64,000 nt of DNA from assembly GCF_036088315.1 (NCBI RefSeq), contig NZ_CP107996.1, positions 5,761,001 to 5,825,000 on the forward strand, written 5' to 3'. Numbering within the stretch: position 1 is the first letter of the stretch; every line of letters starts with the position of its first letter. Position numbers and translations under genes: made by a program. Of the stretch, positions 28,723-39,389 are shown in pieces. Source of the DNA: Streptomyces sp. NBC_00344. Lineage in GTDB: Bacteria; Actinomycetota; Actinomycetes; Streptomycetales; Streptomycetaceae. Below the pieces are notes generated by a model. The model had not been told where the DNA came from. It ran no database searches and saw nothing but the letters and a program-made list of their open reading frames with translations.

Positions 28723-29352
28723 TTACTTCGGCATCAGCACGCTGTCGACGATGTAGACCGTCGCGTTGGCCGTCGGCACATTGCCGCAGACCACGTTGGA
28801 CGTGTCGTTGACCTTGTACGAGGTGCCGGAGCCGGACGTGGTCAGCTTGCTCTTCTCCAGGGTCGGGTACGTGCCGTTCTCCAGCTGCTTCGGGGTGAGC
28901 TTCTGGCCCACCACGTGGTAGGTGAGCACCTTGGTGAGCATGGCCTTGTTGTTGAGGACCTTGTCCAGCTGGGCCTTCGGGATCTTGTTGAAGGCGTCAT
29001 TGGTCGGGGCGAAGACCGTGATGTTCTTGGCGTTGTTCAGCGTGTCGACCAGGCCGGCCTTCTTGACCGCGGTGACCAGCGTGGAGAGCGCCGGGTTGTG
29101 GGAAGCCGCGGTAGCCACCGGGTCCTTGGCCATGCCGTCGAAGCTGCCCGCGCCGTCCTTGGGCACCGACGCGCAACCGGGACCGAACGGCTTGCCGGTG
29201 TCCATGGCGCTGCTCTTGGCCGCCGTGGGCGTCGGCTTGGAGCCGGCGGAGCTGGTCTTGGAGTCGTCGTTGGAGCAGGCGGCCAGCGCCAGCGGCAGGA
29301 CGACCGCACCCACGACGGCGAGGGCGAGGCGGGGGGAGCGAGTGGTGTTCAT
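28723..29352 (-). CDS. Fasciclin-domain lipoprotein (MPT83/MPB70-like)
   Basis: A 209-residue secreted lipoprotein. The signal peptide ends in a lipobox 'LALAAC' (Cys26). A Ser/Thr/Pro linker leads to one fasciclin (FAS1) domain (about 75-209) with the H1 motif 'ITVFAPTNDAFNKIP' and H2 region 'TYHVVGQKLTPKQLENG'. Domain and size match the mycobacterial MPT83/MPT70 antigens, which are controlled by SigK. Here the gene is divergent from a lipid-modifying operon and has a SigK-like promoter 138 or so bases upstream of the ATG (-35 at 29524-29519, -10 at 29502-29497). AAGGAG precedes the start. Function in adhesion or envelope structure is inferred. Confidence 0.92.
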   Translation of the reverse strand: MNTTRSPRLALAVVGAVVLPLALAACSNDDSKTSSAGSKPTPTAAKSSAMDTGKPFGPGCASVPKDGAGSFDGMAKDPVATAASHNPALSTLVTAVKKAGLVDTLNNAKNITVFAPTNDAFNKIPKAQLDKVLNNKAMLTKVLTYHVVGQKLTPKQLENGTYPTLEKSKLTTSGSGTSYKVNDTSNVVCGNVPTANATVYIVDSVLMPK

Positions 29353-29496
29353 GACGGTCTCCTTGCAGTGATCACGTACAGCGGCTTGAGGGGTCGGGTG
29401 CAGTGGAGCGAGCCTCCACGGCGCACGGCACGGCGGGACGGGTAACCCGCTCCGCCCGGTGCTGCCGCGACGCTCCGAAGTGCACTCACGACGCCT

Positions 29497-29576
29497 ATTC
29501 GGCCCGCGACCGTCTGCGGATTGGTCTGTCATTCGATCGAGTGACAGACCAATCCGACCGTGAACCGGCGCCGAAT
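29497..29576. promoter_or_regulatory. Divergent SigK-type ECF promoters built on a 40-bp palindrome
   Basis: Two promoters face away from each other. Toward the fasciclin gene (minus strand): CCAATC at 29524-29519, 16-bp spacer, CCGAAT at 29502-29497. Toward the FAD-oxidoreductase operon (plus strand): CCAATC at 29549-29554, 16-bp spacer, CCGAAT at 29571-29576. Both share the upstream extension tgacagaccaatccg, so the arms 29517-29531 and 29542-29556 form a 40-bp near-perfect palindrome centred on TCGATCGA. The element resembles the mycobacterial SigK promoter (CCATCC-N16/17-CCGAAT). Confidence 0.82.
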
Positions 29577-29621
29577 AGCAGGTAAGGGGCGGTGCACGGA
29601 ACTGCCCCCGGAGGGAGTGGC

Positions 29622-30893
29622 ATGGTGGACCAGAGGCGCCGGACGGCAGTGGTGGGCAGCGGGATCGCGGGGCTCACGGCCGCGCACGTCCTGCAACGCG
29701 CACATGACGTGTCGCTGTACGAGGCCGACGACAGGCTCGGCGGACATGCGCACACCCACGACATACCGGCGGCCGACGGCAGGGTGCACCGTGTCGACTC
29801 GGGTTTCATCGTGCACAACGAGCGGACCTATCCCCTGCTGCTCCGGCTCTTCGGTGAACTGGGCGTCACCACCCAGGAGTCGGAGATGAGCATGTCCGTG
29901 CGGTGCGAGGGCTGCGGACTCGAATACGCCGGAGCGCGGGGGCTGTCGGGGCTTGTCGCGCAGCCGCGCAACCTCTTCCGGGCCCGCTATCTGCGGATGC
30001 TCGCCGAGGTACCGCTCTTCCACCGCAGGGCCCGGCAGCTGCTCGCCGCCGGCGGGGGAGCCGACGGCATGACCCTCGGGAACTTCCTGCGGCGCGGCGG
30101 CTTCTCGCCCTACTTCGTCTCGCACTTCATGACACCGCTGGTCTCAGCGGTCTGGTCCTGCGACCCGCTGACGGCACTCGGCCACCCCGCCGAACCGCTC
30201 TTCCGCTTCATGGACCACCACGGGATGCTCGCGGTCACCGGCTCCCCGGTCTGGCGCACCGTCACCGGAGGCTCGGCACGGTATGTCGAGCGGATCGGCA
30301 AGGAGCTCACCGCCCTGCACACCTCGACCGCGGTCCGGAGCGTGCGGCGCACCCCGGACGGTGTCGAGATCACAGCCGAGGACGGCAGCGCCGAGCGGTA
30401 CGACGCCGTGGTCATCGCCGTCCATCCCGACCAGGCGCTGCGGATGCTCACCGACCCGAGCGAGCAGGAGCGCCGTGTGCTCGGCGCCTTCCGCTACTCC
30501 CGAAACCCCACCCTCCTGCACACGGACACCTCGGTCCTGCCCCGCAGCCCCCGGGCCCGCGCCTCCTGGAACTATCTGATGCCGCACTGCGGCTCGGGGG
30601 CCGAGCGGGTACAGGTCAGCTATGACATGAACCGCCTGCAACGGCTCGACGCCCCCGACCGCTATGTGGTCACCCTCAATGGCGCCGGCCGGATCGCCGA
30701 GGACCGGGTGGTCGACCGCATGGTGTACGAACACCCCGTCCAGACCGTTGAATCGGTGGCCGCACAGCGCCTGCTTCCGGACCTGAACAGCCAGGTCACC
30801 GCCTATGCCGGCGCCTACCACGGCTCGGGCTTCCACGAGGACGGCTGCCGCTCCGGCGTCGCGGCCGCCGCGGCCCTGGGGGTGACCTGGTGA
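29622..30893 (+). CDS. FAD-dependent oxidoreductase (amine-oxidase-like, Rv0449c homologue)
   Basis: A 423-residue flavoprotein with an N-terminal dinucleotide-binding motif 'GSGIAGLTAA' (12-21) and the family sequence 'DDRLGGHAHTHDIPAADG'. It belongs to the flavin-containing amine oxidase / NAD(P)-binding group that regularly accompanies DUF1365 and cyclopropane-fatty-acid-synthase-like genes, as Rv0449c does in M. tuberculosis and as UfaD-like proteins do near furan-fatty-acid genes. It may desaturate or oxidise a fatty acyl chain. The ATG follows GGAGGGA. It is first in a five-gene operon with 4-bp overlaps, driven by the SigK-like promoter at 29549-29576. Confidence 0.9.
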   Translation: MVDQRRRTAVVGSGIAGLTAAHVLQRAHDVSLYEADDRLGGHAHTHDIPAADGRVHRVDSGFIVHNERTYPLLLRLFGELGVTTQESEMSMSVRCEGCGLEYAGARGLSGLVAQPRNLFRARYLRMLAEVPLFHRRARQLLAAGGGADGMTLGNFLRRGGFSPYFVSHFMTPLVSAVWSCDPLTALGHPAEPLFRFMDHHGMLAVTGSPVWRTVTGGSARYVERIGKELTALHTSTAVRSVRRTPDGVEITAEDGSAERYDAVVIAVHPDQALRMLTDPSEQERRVLGAFRYSRNPTLLHTDTSVLPRSPRARASWNYLMPHCGSGAERVQVSYDMNRLQRLDAPDRYVVTLNGAGRIAEDRVVDRMVYEHPVQTVESVAAQRLLPDLNSQVTAYAGAYHGSGFHEDGCRSGVAAAAALGVTW

Positions 30894-31612
30894 ACTCCGT
30901 CTATCCGTGCACCATCACTCATGTGCGGACAGAGCCGCTGCGGCACAGCCTGCGCCACCGCACCTACATGTGGGTGATCGACCCCGACCGGCCGCCCCGG
31001 ATGCCCTGGCCGCTGCGCCTGCTCGCCCGCTTCGACGCACGGGATCACTTCGGCGGCGACGAGCCGACGGTGCGGGCCGGCCTGGAGAAGTTCCTGGCCG
31101 CCAGGGGCGTCGACCTCGCGGGCGGGAGTGTGCTGATGCTCGCCCACGCCCGGGTCCTCGGCTATGTCTTCAACCCGCTCACCGTCTACTGGTGCAACGA
31201 CGCCGATGGCCGCCCGCTGTGTGTCGTCGCAGAGGTGCACAACACCTATGGCGAACGGCACTGCTACCTCCTGCGCCCCGACGCCTCCGGCCAGGACACG
31301 GTCGGGAAGGAGTTCTACGTCTCGCCGTTCTTCCCGGTGGACGGCGACTACCGGATGCGGCTGCCGCGGCCGGGCGAGCGGCTGAATCTCACGGTCCATC
31401 TGGAGCGTGCGGGCACCCGGCCGTTCACCGCGACCGTCAGTGGCGAGCGCCGGGAGGTCACACCGGCCGTGCTGCTGCGGGCGGCACTGCGCCACCCCTG
31501 GCCCGCCCTGGCCGCATCGGCGGCCATCCGTATCCATGGCATCCGCCTCTACCTGCGCGGACTTCCCGTGCAGCCCCGTCCCCGTCACCGGCCTCAGGAG
31601 GGCATGAAGTGA
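30890..31612 (+). CDS. DUF1365 family protein
   Basis: A 240-residue DUF1365 protein (Rv0448c homologue). Characteristic segments: 'CTITHVRTEPLRHSLRHRTYMW', 'LGYVFNPLTVYWCNDADG' and 'EVHNTYGERHCYLL'. No transmembrane helix is obvious. Function is not established; the family occurs almost always with CFA-type methyltransferases and the FAD oxidoreductase, so a role in lipid modification is likely. The GTG overlaps the preceding stop codon (GTGA), meaning translational coupling. Confidence 0.88.
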   Translation: MNSVYPCTITHVRTEPLRHSLRHRTYMWVIDPDRPPRMPWPLRLLARFDARDHFGGDEPTVRAGLEKFLAARGVDLAGGSVLMLAHARVLGYVFNPLTVYWCNDADGRPLCVVAEVHNTYGERHCYLLRPDASGQDTVGKEFYVSPFFPVDGDYRMRLPRPGERLNLTVHLERAGTRPFTATVSGERREVTPAVLLRAALRHPWPALAASAAIRIHGIRLYLRGLPVQPRPRHRPQEGMK

Positions 31613-32928
31613 GCGTGACCGTCTCCACGGAAACCACTGGTTGCCCCGGATCCGCAGGCTCACCGGGACCGGCCCCCGCTGTCCCGGACGCACCGCGCAC
31701 CGCGGTCGACGCCGGGCGGTGGCCGGACGTGGCGCGACTCCCGCGCGCCTCATGGCTGCGTACGGCCGTGGCCGAGCGCATCGTCCGCAAGGCACTCGGA
31801 GCCCTCCCGCTGCGGGTGCGTCTTGGCGCCACGCAGACACTCGGTCTCGGCGGTCCGCTGATGGTGGTGCACGACCCGAGGGCGTTCTTCCGGCGGATCG
31901 GCGCGGGCGGACTCATTGGATTCGGCGAGTCCTACATGGCGGGCGAATGGGAGGCCGGCGACCTGGTCGGCGTGCTGGCCGTGCTCGCCGAACGCGCGGC
32001 GAGCCTGATTCCCGCCCCGCTCCAGAAGCTTCGCGCGGTCTGGGCGAGCAAGCAGCCCGCGGCGCAGCGCAACACCCCCGAGGGATCACGCGAGAACATC
32101 AGCCACCACTACGACCTCTCCAACGATCTGTTCGCGCTCTTCCTGGACGAGACCCTGTCGTACTCATCGGCGCTCTTCCGCGGCTTCCCGGCCGATCACA
32201 CCCTGCTGGCAGCCGCACAGCACCGCAAGATCGACCGGTTGCTCGACCAGGCCGCGGTCGGGCCGGGTACCCGGCTCCTTGAGATCGGTACCGGCTGGGG
32301 TGAACTGGCCGTTCGCGCCGCGGAACGCGGGGCGACGGTGCTCACCGTGACGCTCTCCCGGGAGCAGCGCGATCTGGCCGTGGAACGTATCCGCGCCGCG
32401 GGTGTCGAGGACCGGGTGACCGTGGAGATCCGCGACTACCGCACGGTGCGCGGTGGTTACGACGCCATCGTGAGTGTCGAGATGATCGAGGCCGTCGGCG
32501 CCGAATTCTGGCCCGAGTACTTCAAAACGCTCGACCGGCTGCTGGCGCCGGGCGGGCGGGTCGCCCTCCAGGCGATCACCATGCCGCACGACCGGATGCT
32601 GGCCAGCAGGGACACCTTCACCTGGATCCAGAAGTACATCTTCCCCGGCGGCCTGCTGCCTTCCACCGAGGCGATCGAGCAGACCGCCGCGGACCACACC
32701 GACCTGCGCGTCAGCGGGCGCGACACCTTCGGGCCGCACTACGCGGAGACCCTCAGGCTCTGGCGTGAACGGTTCGAGGAGCAGGCCCCGCAGGTCGCCG
32801 CACTCGGTTTCGACGAGACCTTCCGGCGGCTGTGGACCTTCTATCTCGCCTACTCCGAAGCGGGCTTCCGCTCCGGCTATCTGGACGTGCAGCACGTGCT
32901 GCTGACCAAGGAGGAAACCTCCCGATGA
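31609..32928 (+). CDS. Cyclopropane-fatty-acid-synthase-like methyltransferase, UfaA1 type
   Basis: A 439-residue SAM-dependent methyltransferase acting on unsaturated phospholipid acyl chains. A SAM site 'EIGTGWGEL' lies at about 225-233, preceded by 'NISHHYDLSNDLFALFLD'. At the position where E. coli CFA synthase and mycolate cyclopropane synthases read Tyr-Ser-Cys, this protein has Tyr185-Ser186-Ser187 ('YSSALF'), and it has 'EAVG' in place of 'EHVG'. These substitutions are shared with M. tuberculosis UfaA1 as I recall it and point to a product other than a simple cyclopropane. GTG overlaps the DUF1365 stop (GTGA), with CAGGAGG upstream. An extra N-terminal 100 residues precede the core. 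Confidence 0.9.
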   Translation: MSVTVSTETTGCPGSAGSPGPAPAVPDAPRTAVDAGRWPDVARLPRASWLRTAVAERIVRKALGALPLRVRLGATQTLGLGGPLMVVHDPRAFFRRIGAGGLIGFGESYMAGEWEAGDLVGVLAVLAERAASLIPAPLQKLRAVWASKQPAAQRNTPEGSRENISHHYDLSNDLFALFLDETLSYSSALFRGFPADHTLLAAAQHRKIDRLLDQAAVGPGTRLLEIGTGWGELAVRAAERGATVLTVTLSREQRDLAVERIRAAGVEDRVTVEIRDYRTVRGGYDAIVSVEMIEAVGAEFWPEYFKTLDRLLAPGGRVALQAITMPHDRMLASRDTFTWIQKYIFPGGLLPSTEAIEQTAADHTDLRVSGRDTFGPHYAETLRLWRERFEEQAPQVAALGFDETFRRLWTFYLAYSEAGFRSGYLDVQHVLLTKEETSR

Positions 32929-34232
32929 CGGCTCTTGCGACACGGACCGGCGCCGCACAGCAGCTCTTTCCGCTGGCGGAACAGCTCATGGGGGGCCGCC
33001 TGCCCCTGCGGCTGCGCGCCTGGGACGGCTCCCTCGCCGGTCCCGACGAAGCTCCGGTCGTGGTGCTCCGCTCCCGCCGCGCGCTGCGCAGGCTCGTCTG
33101 GCAGCCCGGTGAACTCGGCCTCGCCCAGGCCTACGTGACGGGCGAACTGGACATCGAGGGGGACCTTGCCGACGGTCTGCGCACGGTGTGGGGCGCGGTC
33201 CGCTCACGGGGCCTGCGCCCGCCGGAGCTCACCCTCGCGCAGCGGGGCCGCGCGTTCCGTACCGCGCTGCGGCTCGGCGCGATCGGCCCCCGGCCCGCTC
33301 CGCCGGCCAGCCAGGCACGGCTGCGGGGCGCCCTGCACAGCCGGGCCCGTGACCGGGCCGCCATCAGCCATCACTACGACCTCTCCAACGACTTCTACGC
33401 GCTGCTGCTCGACCGCACCATGGCGTACTCCTGCGGCTACTGGACCAGCGAGAAGCCCGGTTACGTCGCCGAGGACGCCCAGCGGGACAAGCTGGAACTG
33501 ATCTGCCGCAAGCTCGGACTGCGGCCCGGAGCCCGACTGCTGGACATCGGTTGCGGCTGGGGCTCGCTAGCGCTCTACGCGGCGCAGGAGTACCAGGTGC
33601 GCGTCACCGCGGTCACGCTGGCCCGCGAGCAGGCCGAGTACGTCGGGGCGCAGGTCGAGAAGCGTGGTCTGGGCGACCTGGTCGACGTAAGGCTGTCGGA
33701 CTACCGCGACATCGAGGGCGGCGGTTACGACGCGGTGTCCACGATCGAAATGGGCGAGCACGTCGGCGACGCGGAGTATCCGGGCTTCACCGCGACGCTG
33801 TACGGGATGCTCCGTCCGGCTGGCCGGGTCCTGGTCCAGCAGATGTCCCGGGGCGCTGTCGCACCGGGCGGCGGTGCCTTCATCGAGGCGTACATCGCCC
33901 CCGACATGCACATGCGCCCGCTGGGCGAGACGGTCTCCTTGCTGGAGGGCGCAGGTCTGGAAGTGCGGTCCGTGGAATCACTCCGCGAGCACTACGCCAG
34001 GACCGTCGGTGCCTGGCTGGACACGCTCGAGCAACGCTGGGCGGAGTTCAGCGACCTGGCCGGCGAGGAGACCGCGCGGGTCTGGCGCCTCTATCTGGCC
34101 GGTGGGCGGCTGGCCTTCGAGGAACGCCGGATGGGCGTCGACCAGATCCTCGCGGTCCGGCCCGCCGGTGACGGTACGAGTGCCATGCCCGGCACTCCGC
34201 TGGACTGGTACGCCGAGGACGGCGGACGGTGA
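32925..34232 (+). CDS. Cyclopropane-fatty-acid-synthase-like methyltransferase, second copy
   Basis: A 435-residue methyltransferase of the CFA synthase family. It keeps the canonical residues that the preceding gene has lost: 'YSCGYW' with Cys170 and 'EHVG', along with the SAM motif 'DIGCGWGSL' at about 207. The N-terminal 110 residues form the accessory domain of full-length CFA synthases ('LVWQPGELGLAQAYVTGELDIEG'). This copy therefore may carry out a classical cyclopropanation or methyl addition. ATG overlaps the preceding stop (ATGA). Two adjacent paralogues with different active sites suggest sequential or alternative lipid modifications. Confidence 0.9.
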   Translation: MTALATRTGAAQQLFPLAEQLMGGRLPLRLRAWDGSLAGPDEAPVVVLRSRRALRRLVWQPGELGLAQAYVTGELDIEGDLADGLRTVWGAVRSRGLRPPELTLAQRGRAFRTALRLGAIGPRPAPPASQARLRGALHSRARDRAAISHHYDLSNDFYALLLDRTMAYSCGYWTSEKPGYVAEDAQRDKLELICRKLGLRPGARLLDIGCGWGSLALYAAQEYQVRVTAVTLAREQAEYVGAQVEKRGLGDLVDVRLSDYRDIEGGGYDAVSTIEMGEHVGDAEYPGFTATLYGMLRPAGRVLVQQMSRGAVAPGGGAFIEAYIAPDMHMRPLGETVSLLEGAGLEVRSVESLREHYARTVGAWLDTLEQRWAEFSDLAGEETARVWRLYLAGGRLAFEERRMGVDQILAVRPAGDGTSAMPGTPLDWYAEDGGR

Positions 34233-35047
34233 ACGGCTATCCCTGGGCGGCGTTCGGCGAAGGGGTGGGAGCGGCGGCGGCCGCCGCTCTCGCCGTCATG
34301 CTGATCACGTTCGCCGTCGCGTGCGCCAGGGGGCTGCACCGGATTGTGGACATCGCCTGGGGAGCGGCGTTCGCGCTGGTGGCGCTGGTCTCGTACGCGG
34401 TGTCGTCGGGCGAGGGTGACGACGCCCGACGGCTGCTGGTGACCGTACTGACCGTCGTGTGGGGGGTACGGCTGGCCGCCCATATCGCGTATCGCGGGCG
34501 CGGCCGCGGGGAGGACCCGCGGTACGAGAAGATGCTCAGCGGAGCACGGGGGAACCGGAACCTGTACGCACTGTGCACGGTCTATCTGCTCCAGGGCGCA
34601 CTTGTGCTGCTGGTCTCGCTGCCGGTGCAGGCCGCGCAGTACATCCCGGGGCCGCTCGGCCCGGTCGCCTGGGTGGGCGCCGCGGTGTGGCTGGTCGGCC
34701 TGGCCTTCGAGGCGGTCGGGGACTGGCAGCTGGCGCGCTTCACGTCCGATCCGGCACACCGGGGGCGGATCATGGACCGCGGGCTGTGGTCATGGACCAG
34801 GCACCCGAACTACTTCGGTGACTTCTGTGTCTGGTGGGGGCTGTTCCTCATCGTCTGTGACGATCCGGTGGCAGCCGCTGCAACGGTCGCCGGCCCTGTG
34901 GTGATGAGCCTGCTGCTGACCAAGGGCAGTGGGAAGCGCCTGCTGGAGCGGCATATGGCGGACCGTCCCGGCTTCGCCGAGTACGCCGGGCGCACCAGTG
35001 GTTTCTTCCCGCTGCCGCCGAAGCGGGCCCCGCGGGCCGACGGCTAG
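34229..35047 (+). CDS. DUF1295 membrane protein (steroid-reductase/ICMT-like)
   Basis: A 272-residue integral membrane protein with about six hydrophobic helices, of the DUF1295 family (Rv0446c homologue). The C-terminal 'GLWSWTRHPNYFGDFCVWWG' motif is shared with 5-alpha-reductases and isoprenylcysteine methyltransferases and probably binds NADPH or SAM. It is likely a reductase or methyltransferase acting on a lipid. The GTG start overlaps the previous stop (GTGA), completing the operon. A hairpin immediately at the stop codon ends transcription. Confidence 0.9.
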   Translation: MNGYPWAAFGEGVGAAAAAALAVMLITFAVACARGLHRIVDIAWGAAFALVALVSYAVSSGEGDDARRLLVTVLTVVWGVRLAAHIAYRGRGRGEDPRYEKMLSGARGNRNLYALCTVYLLQGALVLLVSLPVQAAQYIPGPLGPVAWVGAAVWLVGLAFEAVGDWQLARFTSDPAHRGRIMDRGLWSWTRHPNYFGDFCVWWGLFLIVCDDPVAAAATVAGPVVMSLLLTKGSGKRLLERHMADRPGFAEYAGRTSGFFPLPPKRAPRADG

Positions 35048-35234: not shown

Positions 35235-35984
35235 TCAGGCGGGAAACTGCATCAGCGCGAGCGGATTGCTGGTCGGCTCGGCAGAGCCGCCCGCCGGTTC
35301 GACGGTGATGCCCATTCCCTTGGCGGAGTTCACCGAGCCGGCCAGCAGCACACCCTCGGAGGTGGCCGAGGAGTTCAGCAGCCCGGCCGGCCGCATGGTC
35401 CCGGCGTCGTTGAACCACAGCTGGTAGACCTTGCCGCTGGGCGGCTTGGGCAGTCCGGAGGCGAGGAACGCGGCCTTGTTCCTGCTGTGCGACACGACCG
35501 CGGTGCCGGTCGCCCCGTTCGAGAGCCTTCCGGTAGTGACCTTCGCGTCGGGGGCGGCGAGCACCGAGGCCAGCGCATCGGCCTGCTGCTGCGAGTGCTG
35601 GGCACTGGCCCTGGCGTCGCCGGCTTCCTCGTGCTGCCACACCGCGATGCCGCCGAAGCCGACGGCCGCGGCCAGACAGGCCGCCAGCGTGAAGCGTGAG
35701 AGGGCCCGGCCCCGACGGCCACCGCCACCGCGCGGCTGGTGCGCCAGCAGCGGCGGTTCCTGGCGTTCGGTGGCGATCCTCCGCAGCACCTGTGCCTTGA
35801 GCGCGGGTGGCGGGGTCACCGTGACGGCCAGTCCGAGCCGTCCCGCGGTGGCCTGCAGCTCGCGTACCTCCTGGGTGCACGCAGGGCAGTCCGCCAGGTG
35901 CTGCTCGAACTCGGCACGCTCGTCGGTGTCCAGCGCGTGCAGGGCGTACGCGCCGGTGAGTGTGTGCAGATCCGCTGTCATCAT
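35235..35984 (-). CDS. rskA: Anti-sigma factor RskA-like
   Basis: A 249-residue membrane anti-sigma factor. The cytosolic part has the zinc-binding anti-sigma motif His29-x3-Cys33-x2-Cys36 ('HLADCPAC'). One transmembrane helix (about 97-116, 'LSRFTLAACLAAAVGFGGIAVW') and an extracytoplasmic RskA domain (about 120-249; 'YQLWFNDAGTMRPAGLL') follow. It should hold the sigma factor at the membrane until regulated proteolysis. ATG overlaps the sigma gene stop by 4 bp, so both are made together. The site-2 protease at 5.1-6.3 kb is one candidate for its cleavage, but nothing in the sequence proves that. Confidence 0.92.
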   Translation of the reverse strand: MMTADLHTLTGAYALHALDTDERAEFEQHLADCPACTQEVRELQATAGRLGLAVTVTPPPALKAQVLRRIATERQEPPLLAHQPRGGGGRRGRALSRFTLAACLAAAVGFGGIAVWQHEEAGDARASAQHSQQQADALASVLAAPDAKVTTGRLSNGATGTAVVSHSRNKAAFLASGLPKPPSGKVYQLWFNDAGTMRPAGLLNSSATSEGVLLAGSVNSAKGMGITVEPAGGSAEPTSNPLALMQFPA

Positions 35985-36565
35985 GCGCTGACCCCCAGGC
36001 AGTCGCGCATCCGGATGAGTCCGTCGCGCAGTCGAGTTTTGATGGTGCCGAGGGGTACGGAGAGAAGCTCGGCCACTTCCCGGTAGGCGAGCCCCCGGTA
36101 GTACGCGAGGGTCACCGATTCACGCTGCACTTCTGTGAGGGAGCGCAGACAACGCCGTACCTGCTCACGTTCCAGACGCGCCTCCACCTGCTCGGTCACG
36201 TCGTCGAAGGCGGGGGTCCGGTCGAGCAGTGCCGCCTTGTGTTCGCGGTCCGTGGCCGCCTGCGCCGAACGCACCCGGTCCACGGCCCTGCGGTGGGCGA
36301 GCATCAGCACCCAGTTGATGGCGGTTCCCCGGTCGGCGCGGAAACGTGCCGCACTGCGCCACACCTCGAGCAGAACCTCCTGGGCCACCTCCTCCGACTG
36401 GGCCGGGTCCCTCAGCACCGCGCGTACCAGGCCCAGAACGGGGCCGGACACCGCGTCGTACAGACTTGAGAACGCCTCCTGGTCGCCCCTGCTGACCCGG
36501 GCCAGCAGTTCCTGCAGATCAGGTCCCGCCGAGGCGGCTCCGCTGATGTGTACGGCTTCTTTCAC
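35981..36565 (-). CDS. sigK: ECF RNA polymerase sigma factor, SigK type
   Basis: A 194-residue extracytoplasmic-function sigma factor. Region 2 (about 20-90) contains 'DAVSGPVLGLVRAVLRDPAQSEEVAQEVLLEVW' and 'TAINWVLMLAHRRAVDRVR'; region 4 (about 130-185) has 'SLTEVQRESVTLAYYRGLAYREVAELLSVPLGTIKTRLRDGL'. The neighbouring RskA, fasciclin, DUF1365, CFA and DUF1295 genes match the M. tuberculosis SigK locus. GTG at 36565 is chosen for GGAGG upstream; an ATG at 36598 is only about 10 bases from the predicted transcription start. A promoter nearly identical to those of its presumed targets lies at 36616-36643, indicating autoregulation. Confidence 0.93.
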   Translation of the reverse strand: MKEAVHISGAASAGPDLQELLARVSRGDQEAFSSLYDAVSGPVLGLVRAVLRDPAQSEEVAQEVLLEVWRSAARFRADRGTAINWVLMLAHRRAVDRVRSAQAATDREHKAALLDRTPAFDDVTEQVEARLEREQVRRCLRSLTEVQRESVTLAYYRGLAYREVAELLSVPLGTIKTRLRDGLIRMRDCLGVSA

Positions 36566-36615
36566 GCGGCGTTCCTCCACGGTGCGGGACGGTTGCATAC
36601 AAGGGTCTGCTCTTC

Positions 36616-36643
36616 ATTCGGAGCCGGAGCCCTGGTGGATTGC
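36616..36643 (-). promoter_or_regulatory. SigK-like autoregulatory promoter of sigK-rskA
   Basis: On the minus strand GCAATC (36643-36638), a 16-bp spacer, and CCGAAT (36621-36616). This matches the two divergent promoters at 29497-29576 (CCAATC-N16-CCGAAT) in 11 of 12 element bases and in spacing. Confidence 0.78.
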
Positions 36644-36693
36644 TCAGACGCTCGGATGCTGTCAGCGATTCTCACATACGCGATACATCGTGG

Positions 36694-36722
36694 TTGACGC
36701 GTGTGTGGCGTCGCGATATGTT
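36694..36722 (+). promoter_or_regulatory. Vegetative-type promoter of the PadR gene
   Basis: TTGACG at 36694-36699, 17-bp spacer, TATGTT at 36717-36722. This is close to the HrdB/sigma-70 consensus and lies about 40 bp before the chosen PadR start, divergent from the sigK promoter. Confidence 0.65.
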
Positions 36723-36759
36723 CGGCCACGAGTATTCGCATGCGATGAGGAATGGGGCG

Positions 36760-37413
36760 GTGACAGTGGCAGTGAAGCGGCGCAAGCTCGGCAACCCGCT
36801 GGCACTCGCCGTCATGGTGCTGCTTTCCGAGCGCCCGATGCACCCCTACCAGATCGCACAGACCCTCCGTCAGCGCGGCAAGGAACAGAGCGTAAAGATC
36901 AACTTCGGTTCGCTCTACACGGTGGTGCAGAACCTCGAGAAGCATGACTTCGTCGAGGTCGCCGACGTGCAGAAGCAGGGCAATCGCCCCGAGCGCACCC
37001 TCTACTGCCTGACCGGCGAAGGCCGCGCCGAGATGGTCGACTGGATGTCCGATCTGCTGGCCGTCCCCGCCACCGAGTTCCCGCTCTACGGGACGGCGCT
37101 CTCCTTCATGGGGGTGCTGCCGCCGGACGAGACGGCGACGCTGCTGACCGACCGGGCCGGCCAGCTCGAAGTACGGGCCGCCGCGCTGCGGGGCGTCCTG
37201 CAGAAGCTGTACGAGACGCTGCCCCGGATCTTCCTGCTGGACACGGAGTACCAGCTGCACATGCTCGAGGCGGAGGCCGAGTGGACCCGCACGCTGGTCG
37301 CGGAGATGGCGGACGGATCGCTCAGCGGTATACAGGGCTGGCGGTCCTTGCACGAGACCGGTGAAGTCCCGCAGGAATGGCAGACCTTGGAGGAGGATGG
37401 CTCCAGGGACTGA
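36760..37413 (+). CDS. PadR-family transcriptional regulator
   Basis: A 217-residue PadR repressor: an N-terminal winged helix ('GNPLALAVMVLLSERPMHPYQIAQTLRQR', 'NFGSLYTVVQNLEKHDFVEV', 'RTLYCLTGEGRAEM', residues about 8-85) and a C-terminal dimerisation region of the Vir_act_alpha_C type. GTG 36760 follows GAGGA; ATG 36745 and GTG 36766 are alternatives. It sits upstream of and in line with an ABC exporter, the usual arrangement for a PadR that senses an exported drug. About 190 bp with overlapping hairpins separates them. Confidence 0.9.
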   Translation: MTVAVKRRKLGNPLALAVMVLLSERPMHPYQIAQTLRQRGKEQSVKINFGSLYTVVQNLEKHDFVEVADVQKQGNRPERTLYCLTGEGRAEMVDWMSDLLAVPATEFPLYGTALSFMGVLPPDETATLLTDRAGQLEVRAAALRGVLQKLYETLPRIFLLDTEYQLHMLEAEAEWTRTLVAEMADGSLSGIQGWRSLHETGEVPQEWQTLEEDGSRD

Positions 37414-37430
37414 GACGTCCCACAGAGAGA

Positions 37431-37482
37431 AGACCCCGGCGGGCGCTGTTGGAGCAGCTCCCACCGGGGTCTCGAACCCCGG
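37431..37482 (+). promoter_or_regulatory. Overlapping, mutually exclusive hairpins between PadR and ABC exporter genes
   Basis: Stem A: 37431-37443 pairs with 37460-37472 (13 bp, one mismatch). Stem B: 37464-37469 (ccgggg) pairs with 37477-37482 (ccccgg), 7-nt loop. Stem B uses the right arm of stem A, so only one can form. Could be a terminator or an attenuator; no U-run follows. Confidence 0.45.
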
Positions 37483-37605
37483 ACCGGACTTGCGGTGAGG
37501 CAAGCCGGGCGATCGAGGTGCGGCACACCCAGGATAGCCCGGCGCTCTTCACGCGGATCGGCTCGGCATGCCCGAGAACCCCGCTCACCACAGGAGAGCC
37601 CTGTC

Positions 37606-38613
37606 ATGACCGACCCCGCGCCCGCCGTAACGGCGCATCGACTGATCAAGACCTATCCAGGTGATGTCACCGCCCTCAACGGGATGGACATCACCGTCGA
37701 AGCCGGCACCGTCTTCGGGCTGCTGGGCCCCAACGGTGCGGGCAAATCGTCCACCGTGAAGATCCTCACCACCCTCGCCCGCCCGGACAGCGGCGAAGCG
37801 TCGGTCGCCGGACACGATGTGCTGCGCCATCCCGACCGGGTGCGCCGCGAGATCGGGGTCGTCGCCCAGAAGTCCGGCGCCGACCCCGTGGCCACCGGCC
37901 GGGAGAACCTGCTGCTCCAGGGCCGGCTCTACGGCATGAGAGGCGCCGCACTCGCCGGGCGCGTCGGTGAGCTGCTCGACCGCTTCGATCTCGCGGACGC
38001 GGCGAACCGCATCGTGAAGGGATATTCCGGCGGTATGCAGCGCCGCCTCGATGTGGCGCTCGGTCTGGTCCACCGGCCGCGGGTGCTCTTCCTCGACGAA
38101 CCGACGACCGGGCTCGACCCCGAGGCCCGCGCGGCCATGTGGGACGAGATCTCCCGGCTGGCGGGCGAAGAGGGGCTGACCATTCTCCTCACCACCCACT
38201 ATCTGGAGGAGGCCGACCGGCTGGCCGAGCGCATCGCGATCGTCGACCGCGGCCGGGTCGTGGTCGAGGGCACCCCCGATGAGCTCAAGGGCGAACTGCG
38301 CGGCGACGCGGTGCATGTGGAGCTCCGGGCCGAAGGGGACGGAGCGGTGCTCACCGCCGCACTCGCCGGCCTGCCCGGCATCCATGAGGTGCTGGTCGAG
38401 GGGCGCCGGGTCAGTGCCAGGGCGGACGACGGGGCGGCAGCGGTGCCGTCATTGCTCGCCACCCTGGAGAGGGCCGGAGCCGCCGTCGCCGCCGCGACGG
38501 TCGCCAGGCCATCCCTTGACGACGTCTATCTGCGATACGCAGGACGCCGGTTCGCCGAAGCAGTTCCCACCGTCCCGCACCTCGCGGGCGCAGCCGCGGG
38601 AGAAGCCCTGTGA
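37606..38613 (+). CDS. ABC transporter ATP-binding protein (DrrA type)
   Basis: A 335-residue ATPase of the daunorubicin-resistance type. Walker A 'GPNGAGKS' (41-48), Q-loop 'VVAQKSG', signature 'YSGGMQRRLDVALGL', Walker B 'VLFLDEPTTGLDPEAR', H-loop 'LTTHYLEEADRLAERI'. The C-terminal extension (about 240-335) is typical of DrrA-like exporters. ATG is preceded by CAGGAGA. The permease gene overlaps its stop codon (GTGA). With the PadR gene upstream this forms a probable drug or metabolite efflux unit. Confidence 0.94.
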   Translation: MTDPAPAVTAHRLIKTYPGDVTALNGMDITVEAGTVFGLLGPNGAGKSSTVKILTTLARPDSGEASVAGHDVLRHPDRVRREIGVVAQKSGADPVATGRENLLLQGRLYGMRGAALAGRVGELLDRFDLADAANRIVKGYSGGMQRRLDVALGLVHRPRVLFLDEPTTGLDPEARAAMWDEISRLAGEEGLTILLTTHYLEEADRLAERIAIVDRGRVVVEGTPDELKGELRGDAVHVELRAEGDGAVLTAALAGLPGIHEVLVEGRRVSARADDGAAAVPSLLATLERAGAAVAAATVARPSLDDVYLRYAGRRFAEAVPTVPHLAGAAAGEAL

Positions 38614-39389
38614 GCACCGCCACTCTCACCCAGACCTGGTACATGACCCAGCGTCAGCTGATGGCGATCCTGCGTCAGCCCGTCTTTCTGCTGATCTCCC
38701 TGATCCAGCCGGTGATCTGGCTGTTCCTCTTCGGCAGCCTCTTCCGGAAGGTCGTCGAACTCGGTGGGTTCGGCACCTCCACGTATCTCGACTATCTGAT
38801 CCCGGGCATCGTGGTGATGAGCGCCCTGGGATCGAGCATGTGGGCCGGCATGGGAACCCTGGAGGAGATCGAACGCGGCACGCTCAACCGCTTCCTGACC
38901 ACCCCGGTCAGCCGGACCGCGCTGATGAACGCCAATGTGGTGCAGAACGGCATCTCCACGGCGGTTCAGTCCGTGGTCATCGTGCTGCTGGGGCTGCTCG
39001 GCGGCGCTCAGTACCCCGGGGGCCTCGGCGGGCTCGTCATCCTGGTGGTCGCGTCGATCCTGCTCGGTACGGTCTTCGGAACCCTCTCCAACGCTCTCGG
39101 CATGCTGGTCCGTGAGCGCGAATCGATCATCGGCATCAACACCTTTCTGCTGCTGCCGCTGACGTTCCTGTCCTCGGCCTTCATGGCCCCTGCCCAGATG
39201 CCGTCCTGGATGCGGCACATCGCGGACTTCAACCCGGTGAACTGGGCGATGGTGGCGGGGCGTTCGGCGATGTCGGCGGGCCCGGACTGGGGTGTGGTGC
39301 TCAGCCGCGGAGGAGGGCTGCTGCTGCTCGCGGTGTTCTCGGTCTGGCTGTCGACCCGTACCTTCCGGTCCTACCAGCGCTCCGTCTGA
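38610..39389 (+). CDS. ABC-2 type transporter permease (DrrB type)
   Basis: A 259-residue permease with six predicted helices. The family hallmark 'IERGTLNRFLTTPVSRTALMNAN' lies between TM2 and TM3, and 'FLSSAFMAPAQMPSWMRHIADFNPVNW' near the end matches DrrB-like ABC-2 permeases. It is translationally coupled to the ATPase gene and forms with it an exporter of unknown substrate. It is followed by a strong hairpin. Confidence 0.93.
   Translation: MSTATLTQTWYMTQRQLMAILRQPVFLLISLIQPVIWLFLFGSLFRKVVELGGFGTSTYLDYLIPGIVVMSALGSSMWAGMGTLEEIERGTLNRFLTTPVSRTALMNANVVQNGISTAVQSVVIVLLGLLGGAQYPGGLGGLVILVVASILLGTVFGTLSNALGMLVRERESIIGINTFLLLPLTFLSSAFMAPAQMPSWMRHIADFNPVNWAMVAGRSAMSAGPDWGVVLSRGGGLLLLAVFSVWLSTRTFRSYQRSV

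Follow-up and report, generated by a model that had tools for sequence, protein, structure and literature searches.

A recurrent BldM-like box between divergent SigK-type promoters in Streptomyces

In the genome of Streptomyces sp. NBC_00344, two outward-facing promoters share one long palindrome. The question that this locus raises is whether such symmetry simply comes with two promoters placed back to back, or whether it houses a regulator that sits between them. We analysed a window of 64,000 nucleotides (the whole stretch of DNA under study; positions are counted from its first letter). An initial annotation had described two promoters with identical CCAATC-N16-CCGAAT elements, one on each strand, which together form a 40-bp palindrome with a single odd pair; it had guessed at a dimeric co-regulator, suspected a nearby sigma factor and proposed searching the whole genome for the promoter pattern.

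The palindrome, its promoters and the surrounding genes

The sequence elements around the symmetry centre are the following.

29497..29524, minus strand: SigK-type promoter facing FAS1 (-35 CCAATC at 29524-29519, N16, -10 CCGAAT at 29502-29497; read from the sequence)
29549..29576, plus strand: SigK-type promoter facing the oxidoreductase operon (-35 at 29549-29554, N16, -10 at 29571-29576; read from the sequence)
29517..29556, strandless: 40-bp near-perfect palindrome, centre at 29536/29537, mismatched pair 29532/29541

Both promoters and the palindrome, odd pair included, were found as first described. The arms of the inverted repeat (29517-29536 and 29537-29556, 20 nt each with 0 nt between them) are 95% complementary, pairing at 19 of 20 positions. 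From base composition, 64 kb should contain 4.8e-5 palindromes with at least 19/20 pairs; this one is the best in the window, and the runners-up reach 17/20 pairs. The 40-bp inverted repeat is real and chance is excluded.

The promoter pattern recurs beyond the palindrome. Within the same genome, CCAATC-N14-18-CCGAAT has four matches, two of them with N16 (both belonging to the divergent pair), and the reversed-pattern control has 0. Searching for CCAATCC-N15-CCGAAT with at most one mismatch returned seven matches against 0 in the control: the divergent pair, the sigK promoter (36643, minus strand), the promoter of a molybdopterin oxidoreductase (MOCO) gene at C1:485777 and three more. Across the genus, CCAATC-N14-18-CCGAAT is present in 225 of 295 genomes, with about 12 places in the reversed control (counted by eye). 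Judged by this recurrence, the SigK-type promoters are real. The genes of the region are listed below.

28723..29352, minus strand: FAS1 (fasciclin) lipoprotein, MPT70/MPT83-type (Pfam PF02469, 118 bits, run on 28723-29355; start at ATG 29352, from the sequence)
29622..30893, plus strand: FAD amine-oxidase-like protein (OX), operon gene 1 (Pfam PF01593, run from 29592; the in-frame GTG at 29592 is an alternative start)
30890..31612, plus strand: DUF1365 protein (Pfam PF07103, 233 bits)
31600..32928, plus strand: cyclopropane-synthase-family methyltransferase (CMAS) 1 (Pfam PF02353, 291 bits; start uncertain)
32832..34232, plus strand: CMAS 2 (Pfam PF02353, 252 bits; start uncertain)
34229..35047, plus strand: DUF1295 protein (Pfam PF06966, 234 bits)
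35235..35984, minus strand: RskA-type anti-sigma factor (Pfam PF10099, RskA_C, and PF22618, RskA_N)
35981..36598, minus strand: SigK ECF sigma factor (NCBIfam NF007228, 289 bits against a cut-off of 226; Pfam regions 2 and 4; start uncertain)
36616..36643, minus strand: promoter of sigK itself, GCAATC-N16-CCGAAT (without a BldM-like core at 4 or 14 bp; best 10/14 at gap 0)

The nearby sigma factor is thus a SigK, adjoined by RskA and preceded by a promoter of the same type, which bears out the suspected link. The sigK-rskA pair lies 5 kb from the palindrome and is convergent to the OX operon. The locus shows the marks of a SigK (ECF19-type) regulon: a SigK orthologue near the promoters, RskA beside sigK, and FAS1 and an Rv0449c-type operon flanking the promoters. 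The genes of the mycobacterial Rv0449c operon correspond in their domains to amine oxidase, DUF1365, CMAS and DUF1295. In mycobacteria, the reported SigK targets include MPT70/MPT83 and the Rv0449c promoter (PMC7509140, PMC9861118). The Streptomyces locus is like the Mycobacterium SigK-RskA regulon in its SigK and RskA family members, its FAS1 target of the MPT70/83 type and its amine-oxidase operon, and differs from it in having target promoters that diverge from a BldM-like box between them. The autoregulation of sigK in M. tuberculosis is reported to run through the Rv0449c promoter, whereas here sigK is preceded by its own SigK-type promoter and the sigK-rskA pair converges on the operon. 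Divergent from sigK lies a PadR-type regulator gene, followed by apparent ABC transporter genes (36640-39389; transporter judged from the sequence).

In many relatives (e.g. L025) a MOCO gene (PF00174) stands between the divergent promoter and FAS1. In the genome studied here MOCO and FAS1 are far apart, with a SigK-type promoter at each: the MOCO gene (L121:2269-3903, at about 485.8 kb of G000:C1) is 5.3 Mb from FAS1, and its promoter is of the SigK type with one mismatch and has, 5 bp away, a weakly matching BldM-like box (10/14).

The central core and its distance to the -35 elements

The palindrome consists of three symmetric parts, namely the two -35 elements and, between them, a shorter palindrome.

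29529..29544, strandless: 16-bp core TCATTCGATCGAGTGA in the centre, with 4 bp to either -35; candidate BldM (Group I) box, matching TCACcCgnncGgGTGA at 11/14

When 392 genomes of the genus were searched for the exact back-to-back pair, with N16 in both promoters and 2-32 bp separating them, a single one had it, the window's own, so the strict 40-bp palindrome is lineage-specific. In one relative's locus, L003, the core and the -35 elements are kept at the same 4-bp spacing as in the window and the symmetry of the spacers is absent. On these two grounds we rejected the 40-bp palindrome as a single conserved operator. The initial annotation had not told the core at the centre of the palindrome apart from the rest.

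We compared 81 loci, the window and the best 80 of 243 relatives' loci found. A divergent promoter pair is present in 48 of these 81, with -35 to -35 distances of 24, 33-34, 44-45, 55-57 and 80 bp, and single loci at 28, 29, 63 and 75 bp. In most divergent loci a core of the type TCAYYCGATCGRRTGA lies between the -35 boxes; scored against TCACCCGnnCGGGTGA, it reaches at least 10/14 in 36 of the 48, and the other 12 are without a core of 10/14. The distance from the core to the divergent-side -35 is 4 bp (21 loci), 14 bp (12) or 15 bp (3) in all 36. Towards the operon-side (OX) -35 it is 14 bp (20), 13 (8), 4 (3), 60 (2), or 35, 36 and 37 (one each); 31 of the 36 are thus at 4, 13 or 14 bp, three at 35-37 and two at 60. 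Spacers of 4 bp on either side of the core are confined, among the 48 divergent loci, to the window and L003, and it is this equal spacing that makes the window look like one long palindrome. Altogether the 81 loci hold 165 SigK-type promoters, of which 51 have a core of at least 11/14, 47 of these at 4-5 or 13-14 bp (the exceptions have gaps of 36, 37, 0 and 31), a core common to a divergent pair being able to count from both sides.

As the loci are related, spacing changes were mapped on a tree of OX, the protein encoded first in the operon (48 rows, quick method). For strong cores, the divergent-side distance changes twice on this tree (14 and 15 coded alike) and the operon-side distance six times; each of the two divergent-side changes links 4 and 14 bp, about one helical turn. 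The helical rule comes down to few events, and the recurrence of the 4-bp distance across tree and contexts is the stronger point.

The core is enriched where a promoter has a partner. Of 46 OX promoters that have a good divergent partner, 23 reach at least 11/14, a score seen in 0.8% of dinucleotide shuffles; of 28 OX promoters without such a partner, three do. Among sigK promoters the same score is reached by 2 of 57 (L034 at gap 0, L047 at gap 31), against 0.9% of shuffles, and in a second count by 1 of 68, with an expectation of 0.53. With these two counts, and with the window's own sigK promoter at 10/14 and gap 0, a BldM box at sigK promoters is unsupported. A different conserved element, GGAAAGATCGC-like and unlike the BldM core, stands about 10-16 bp before the -35 of the sigK promoters of L020, L036, L037, L041, L043, L045, L047, L052, L061 and L074.

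In the OX-selected loci L002-L081, 17 of 30 MOCO promoters have a core of at least 11/14, in 17 of 17 cases at 4 bp; over 102 loci the count is 27 of 43, again all 27 at 4 bp, with a shuffle expectation of 0.10. These 43 promoters comprise 30 from loci chosen by the OX protein alone, 12 from loci selected by half-site and one (L121) from the promoter search in the own genome. In six rearranged loci FAS1 does not diverge from OX and is served by its own SigK-type promoter. Four of the six carry a core of at least 11/14, at 4 bp in L027, L034 and L079 and at 5 bp from the -35 in L060; L056 (8/14) and L080 (10/14 at 11 bp) are off-pattern.

Genus-wide, 382 genomes were searched for a SigK-type promoter with the half-site TCACYCG at any gap of 1-30. 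This gave 34 matches in 31 genomes, and 0 in the control, with gaps (from the match lengths) of 4 (23), 8 (7), 14 (3) and 24 (1). Twenty of the 34 sites were inspected. The 13 gap-4 sites among them point towards MOCO in 12 cases and towards OX in one (L107), and the gap-24 site (L103) points towards FAS1. Some of the gap-4 MOCO sites adjoin OX, some adjoin other sigK genes and some stand alone. MOCO promoters in other contexts are at 4 bp as well (L094-096, L104-106, L111-113), and these loci, having been chosen for the half-site, inform on the gap only. Six of the seven gap-8 sites, which are off the 4/14/24 series, were inspected: all belong to the divergent promoters of a further sigK-rskA-like pair (identities of 69-71% and 34-37%), and a second half-site is missing from them. 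They are probably another element and were set aside post hoc. A strict 10-bp ladder for all distances is weakened by the gap-8 sites (7/34) and by the distances of 35-37 and 60 bp (5/36). At the second sigK-rskA-like pair (L097:4001-4070, and the same site in L098-L102), SigK-type divergent promoters are accompanied by a conserved element, TTCACCCGCGTTTT...GTTGATCCGTAAC, 8 bp from one -35, possibly the site of another co-regulator.

The candidate regulator and its distribution

BldM is the developmental response regulator with which sporulation begins. The Group I motif of its homodimer is a 16-bp palindrome, 5'-TCACcCgnncGgGTGA-3', footprinted on two promoters (PMC4125116), and a near-identical motif is reported in S. 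griseus promoters (PMC8914203). The same S. griseus study places a fasciclin gene, perhaps another than the FAS1 here, in a group with a different, T-rich motif (PMC8914203). Against the Group I motif the window core matches 11/14 and relatives' cores up to 13/14; the window core departs at one strongly conserved (capital) position, with T for C at position 4. Against the Group II BldM-WhiI site TGnnCCGnnCGGGTGA it scores 8/12 and 9/12 in the two orientations, which leaves it outside Group II. This resemblance suggests a BldM homodimer site, and we regard the core as a candidate box. The part of the initial annotation that imagined a dimeric co-regulator thus keeps its ground, with a separate 16-bp palindrome that is BldM-like and obeys a distance rule; the idea of 40 bp as one conserved unit does not. 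The S. venezuelae BldM Group I promoters (whiB, ssgR and others; PMC4125116) are the closest comparison: here too a 16-bp palindrome, one that resembles TCACcCgnncGgGTGA, goes with a candidate BldM that is 100% identical between genomes. The locus differs from them in that the candidate box lies 4 or about 14 bp from an ECF SigK-type -35 and would serve two opposite promoters. The accessible part of the Group I account in PMC4125116 makes no mention of a SigK link.

The genome studied here encodes a candidate BldM at L088:449-1060 (minus strand), a response regulator of 203 aa with Response_reg and GerE domains, which adjoins a whiD-like gene. We take the two to be bldM and whiD; bldM is a neighbour of whiD. 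The protein is 100% identical in 12 of 13 genus genomes, the own included, and the thirteenth, in which there is no match, is 79% complete. BldM is likewise reported as 100% identical across Streptomyces (PMC4125116).

The motif was also checked by itself. As a positive control from known BldM targets, the 3-kb loci of eight Wbl genes yielded one site of at least 12/14, in L088 downstream of the whiD-like gene, and so gave no support. A search for the bare core gave 33 sites against 4 in the reversed-pattern control, a comparison that we set aside as unfair because the reversed pattern contains CTAG, a tetranucleotide that is rare in Streptomyces.

Outside the genus, 40 loci were drawn from the class, Streptomyces excepted. 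With at most two mismatches allowed, 13 of them show a SigK-type promoter, and among the matches listed for the 40 loci there is no core of 10/14. One actinobacterial genus (f21/g41) has kept the divergent pair, with 12 bp between the -35 elements in five of six loci (L133, L135, L138, L139, L140), a distance at which two holoenzymes could hardly bind at once. Its divergent promoters are without a BldM-like box, and a BldM match at 1e-40 is absent in all five of its genomes examined; we present this as one lineage contrast with Streptomyces, not as a statistical test. Among 12 class genomes tested, two have a BldM match at 1e-40. In one of these two, G456, whose BldM-like protein has 67% identity, the OX promoter (L124) is without a core (8/14).

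A proposed composite promoter and its alternatives

In S. venezuelae BldM is reported to be mainly an activator (in the bldM mutant, expression of 131 direct targets fell and that of 6 genes rose; PMC4125116), and for that reason we propose that one dimer co-activates both SigK promoters. From the elements, their recurrence and their spacing, all read in the DNA, we infer that a BldM dimer probably co-activates the SigK holoenzyme at both divergent promoters. The SigK holoenzyme would recognise the outward CCAATC(CG)-N16-CCGAAT promoters, as motif and regulon context suggest, and one BldM dimer would occupy the 16-bp palindrome at 29529-29544, as its motif match and conservation suggest. Bound there, BldM may contact sigma region 4 or the alpha subunits of the polymerase, the -35 starting 4 bp away. 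The box would be centred some 12 bp upstream of each -35, or near -46 if transcription starts 7 bp past the -10; from that position, or one turn further, an activator could touch sigma region 4 or alpha. In the window a single symmetric dimer would be equally near both promoters, and in relatives, where the box keeps 4 or 14-15 bp to one -35 and in most cases 13-14 bp to the other, it would be about one helical turn further from one of them. The 40-bp symmetry would then amount to two identical -35 elements that happen to flank a palindromic site equidistantly. Such an arrangement could act as an AND gate, in which SigK freed from RskA by an envelope or redox signal would have to meet BldM made at the onset of development.

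The core could instead be the conserved operator of another dimeric regulator with a BldM-like site, be it a different response regulator of the NarL/FixJ family or the BldM-WhiI heterodimer. The S. griseus-type clade speaks for this reading, as several of its cores, such as TCACCCGATCGGAGCA, match the Group II BldM-WhiI site (TGnnCCGnnCGGGTGA reversed) at 11-12/12, with BldM-WhiI-like cores in L009, L014, L020, L036, L041, L045, L067 and L074. The window core, however, does not fit the heterodimer motif and is closer to Group I (11/14 versus 9/12 for Group II), and we find this reading unlikely. PadR, the product of the sole regulator gene beside sigK in the window, is an unlikely partner in particular, with a match in 5 of 56 relatives' loci that extend at least 900 bp beyond sigK.

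It would be somewhat more surprising still if there were no co-regulator and just two back-to-back SigK promoters, their symmetry left by a past inverted duplication or by selection on an extended -35. The strict unit in a single one of 392 genomes would agree with that, as would the bases adjoining the -35, which are partly promoter consensus; but the 16-bp core recurs without the 40-bp symmetry at defined distances, with the -35 elements 33-45 bp apart, it is also found at MOCO/FAS1 promoters without an OX partner, and just 2 of 57 sigK promoters, which are of the same type, attain 11/14. Least credible of all, in our judgement, is the idea that the core serves as a repressor site or roadblock and silences both SigK promoters until development. 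A protein bound at the core between the two -35 elements could hinder the polymerase, yet the site is upstream of both -35 elements and overlaps neither, and the predominance of activation in the S. venezuelae bldM mutant also argues against repression.

The reading with BldM as co-activator can be taken further, although here we are doubtful: BldM might be an obligate co-activator at composite SigK promoters of rigid geometry (4 bp or one turn more), with one dimer serving two opposed holoenzymes in the window and with the box of the S. griseus clade drifted to a BldM-WhiI heterodimer site. If so, that drift would delay the SigK regulon of the clade to late sporulation. More generally, the sequence evidence suggests that the flanked genes are switched jointly by a stress response and the developmental programme. 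The recurrent BldM-like box at Streptomyces SigK-type promoters would, if BldM binds it, put an envelope regulon inside that programme, and an ECF sigma factor would work with an activator at fixed spacing instead of by promoter recognition alone. SigK-RskA controls major mycobacterial antigens, and its stimuli have been called obscure (PMC9861118). A described BldM-SigK link was not found in the literature searched (subscription papers and supplements lay outside its coverage).

Elsewhere in the genome studied here, near-consensus BldM-like palindromes with one mismatch stand before a SpoIIE-type phosphatase gene (L084:1501-1516) and a SulP-type transporter gene (L083:1501-1516), gene types that were judged from the sequence; these two sites are suggestive only.
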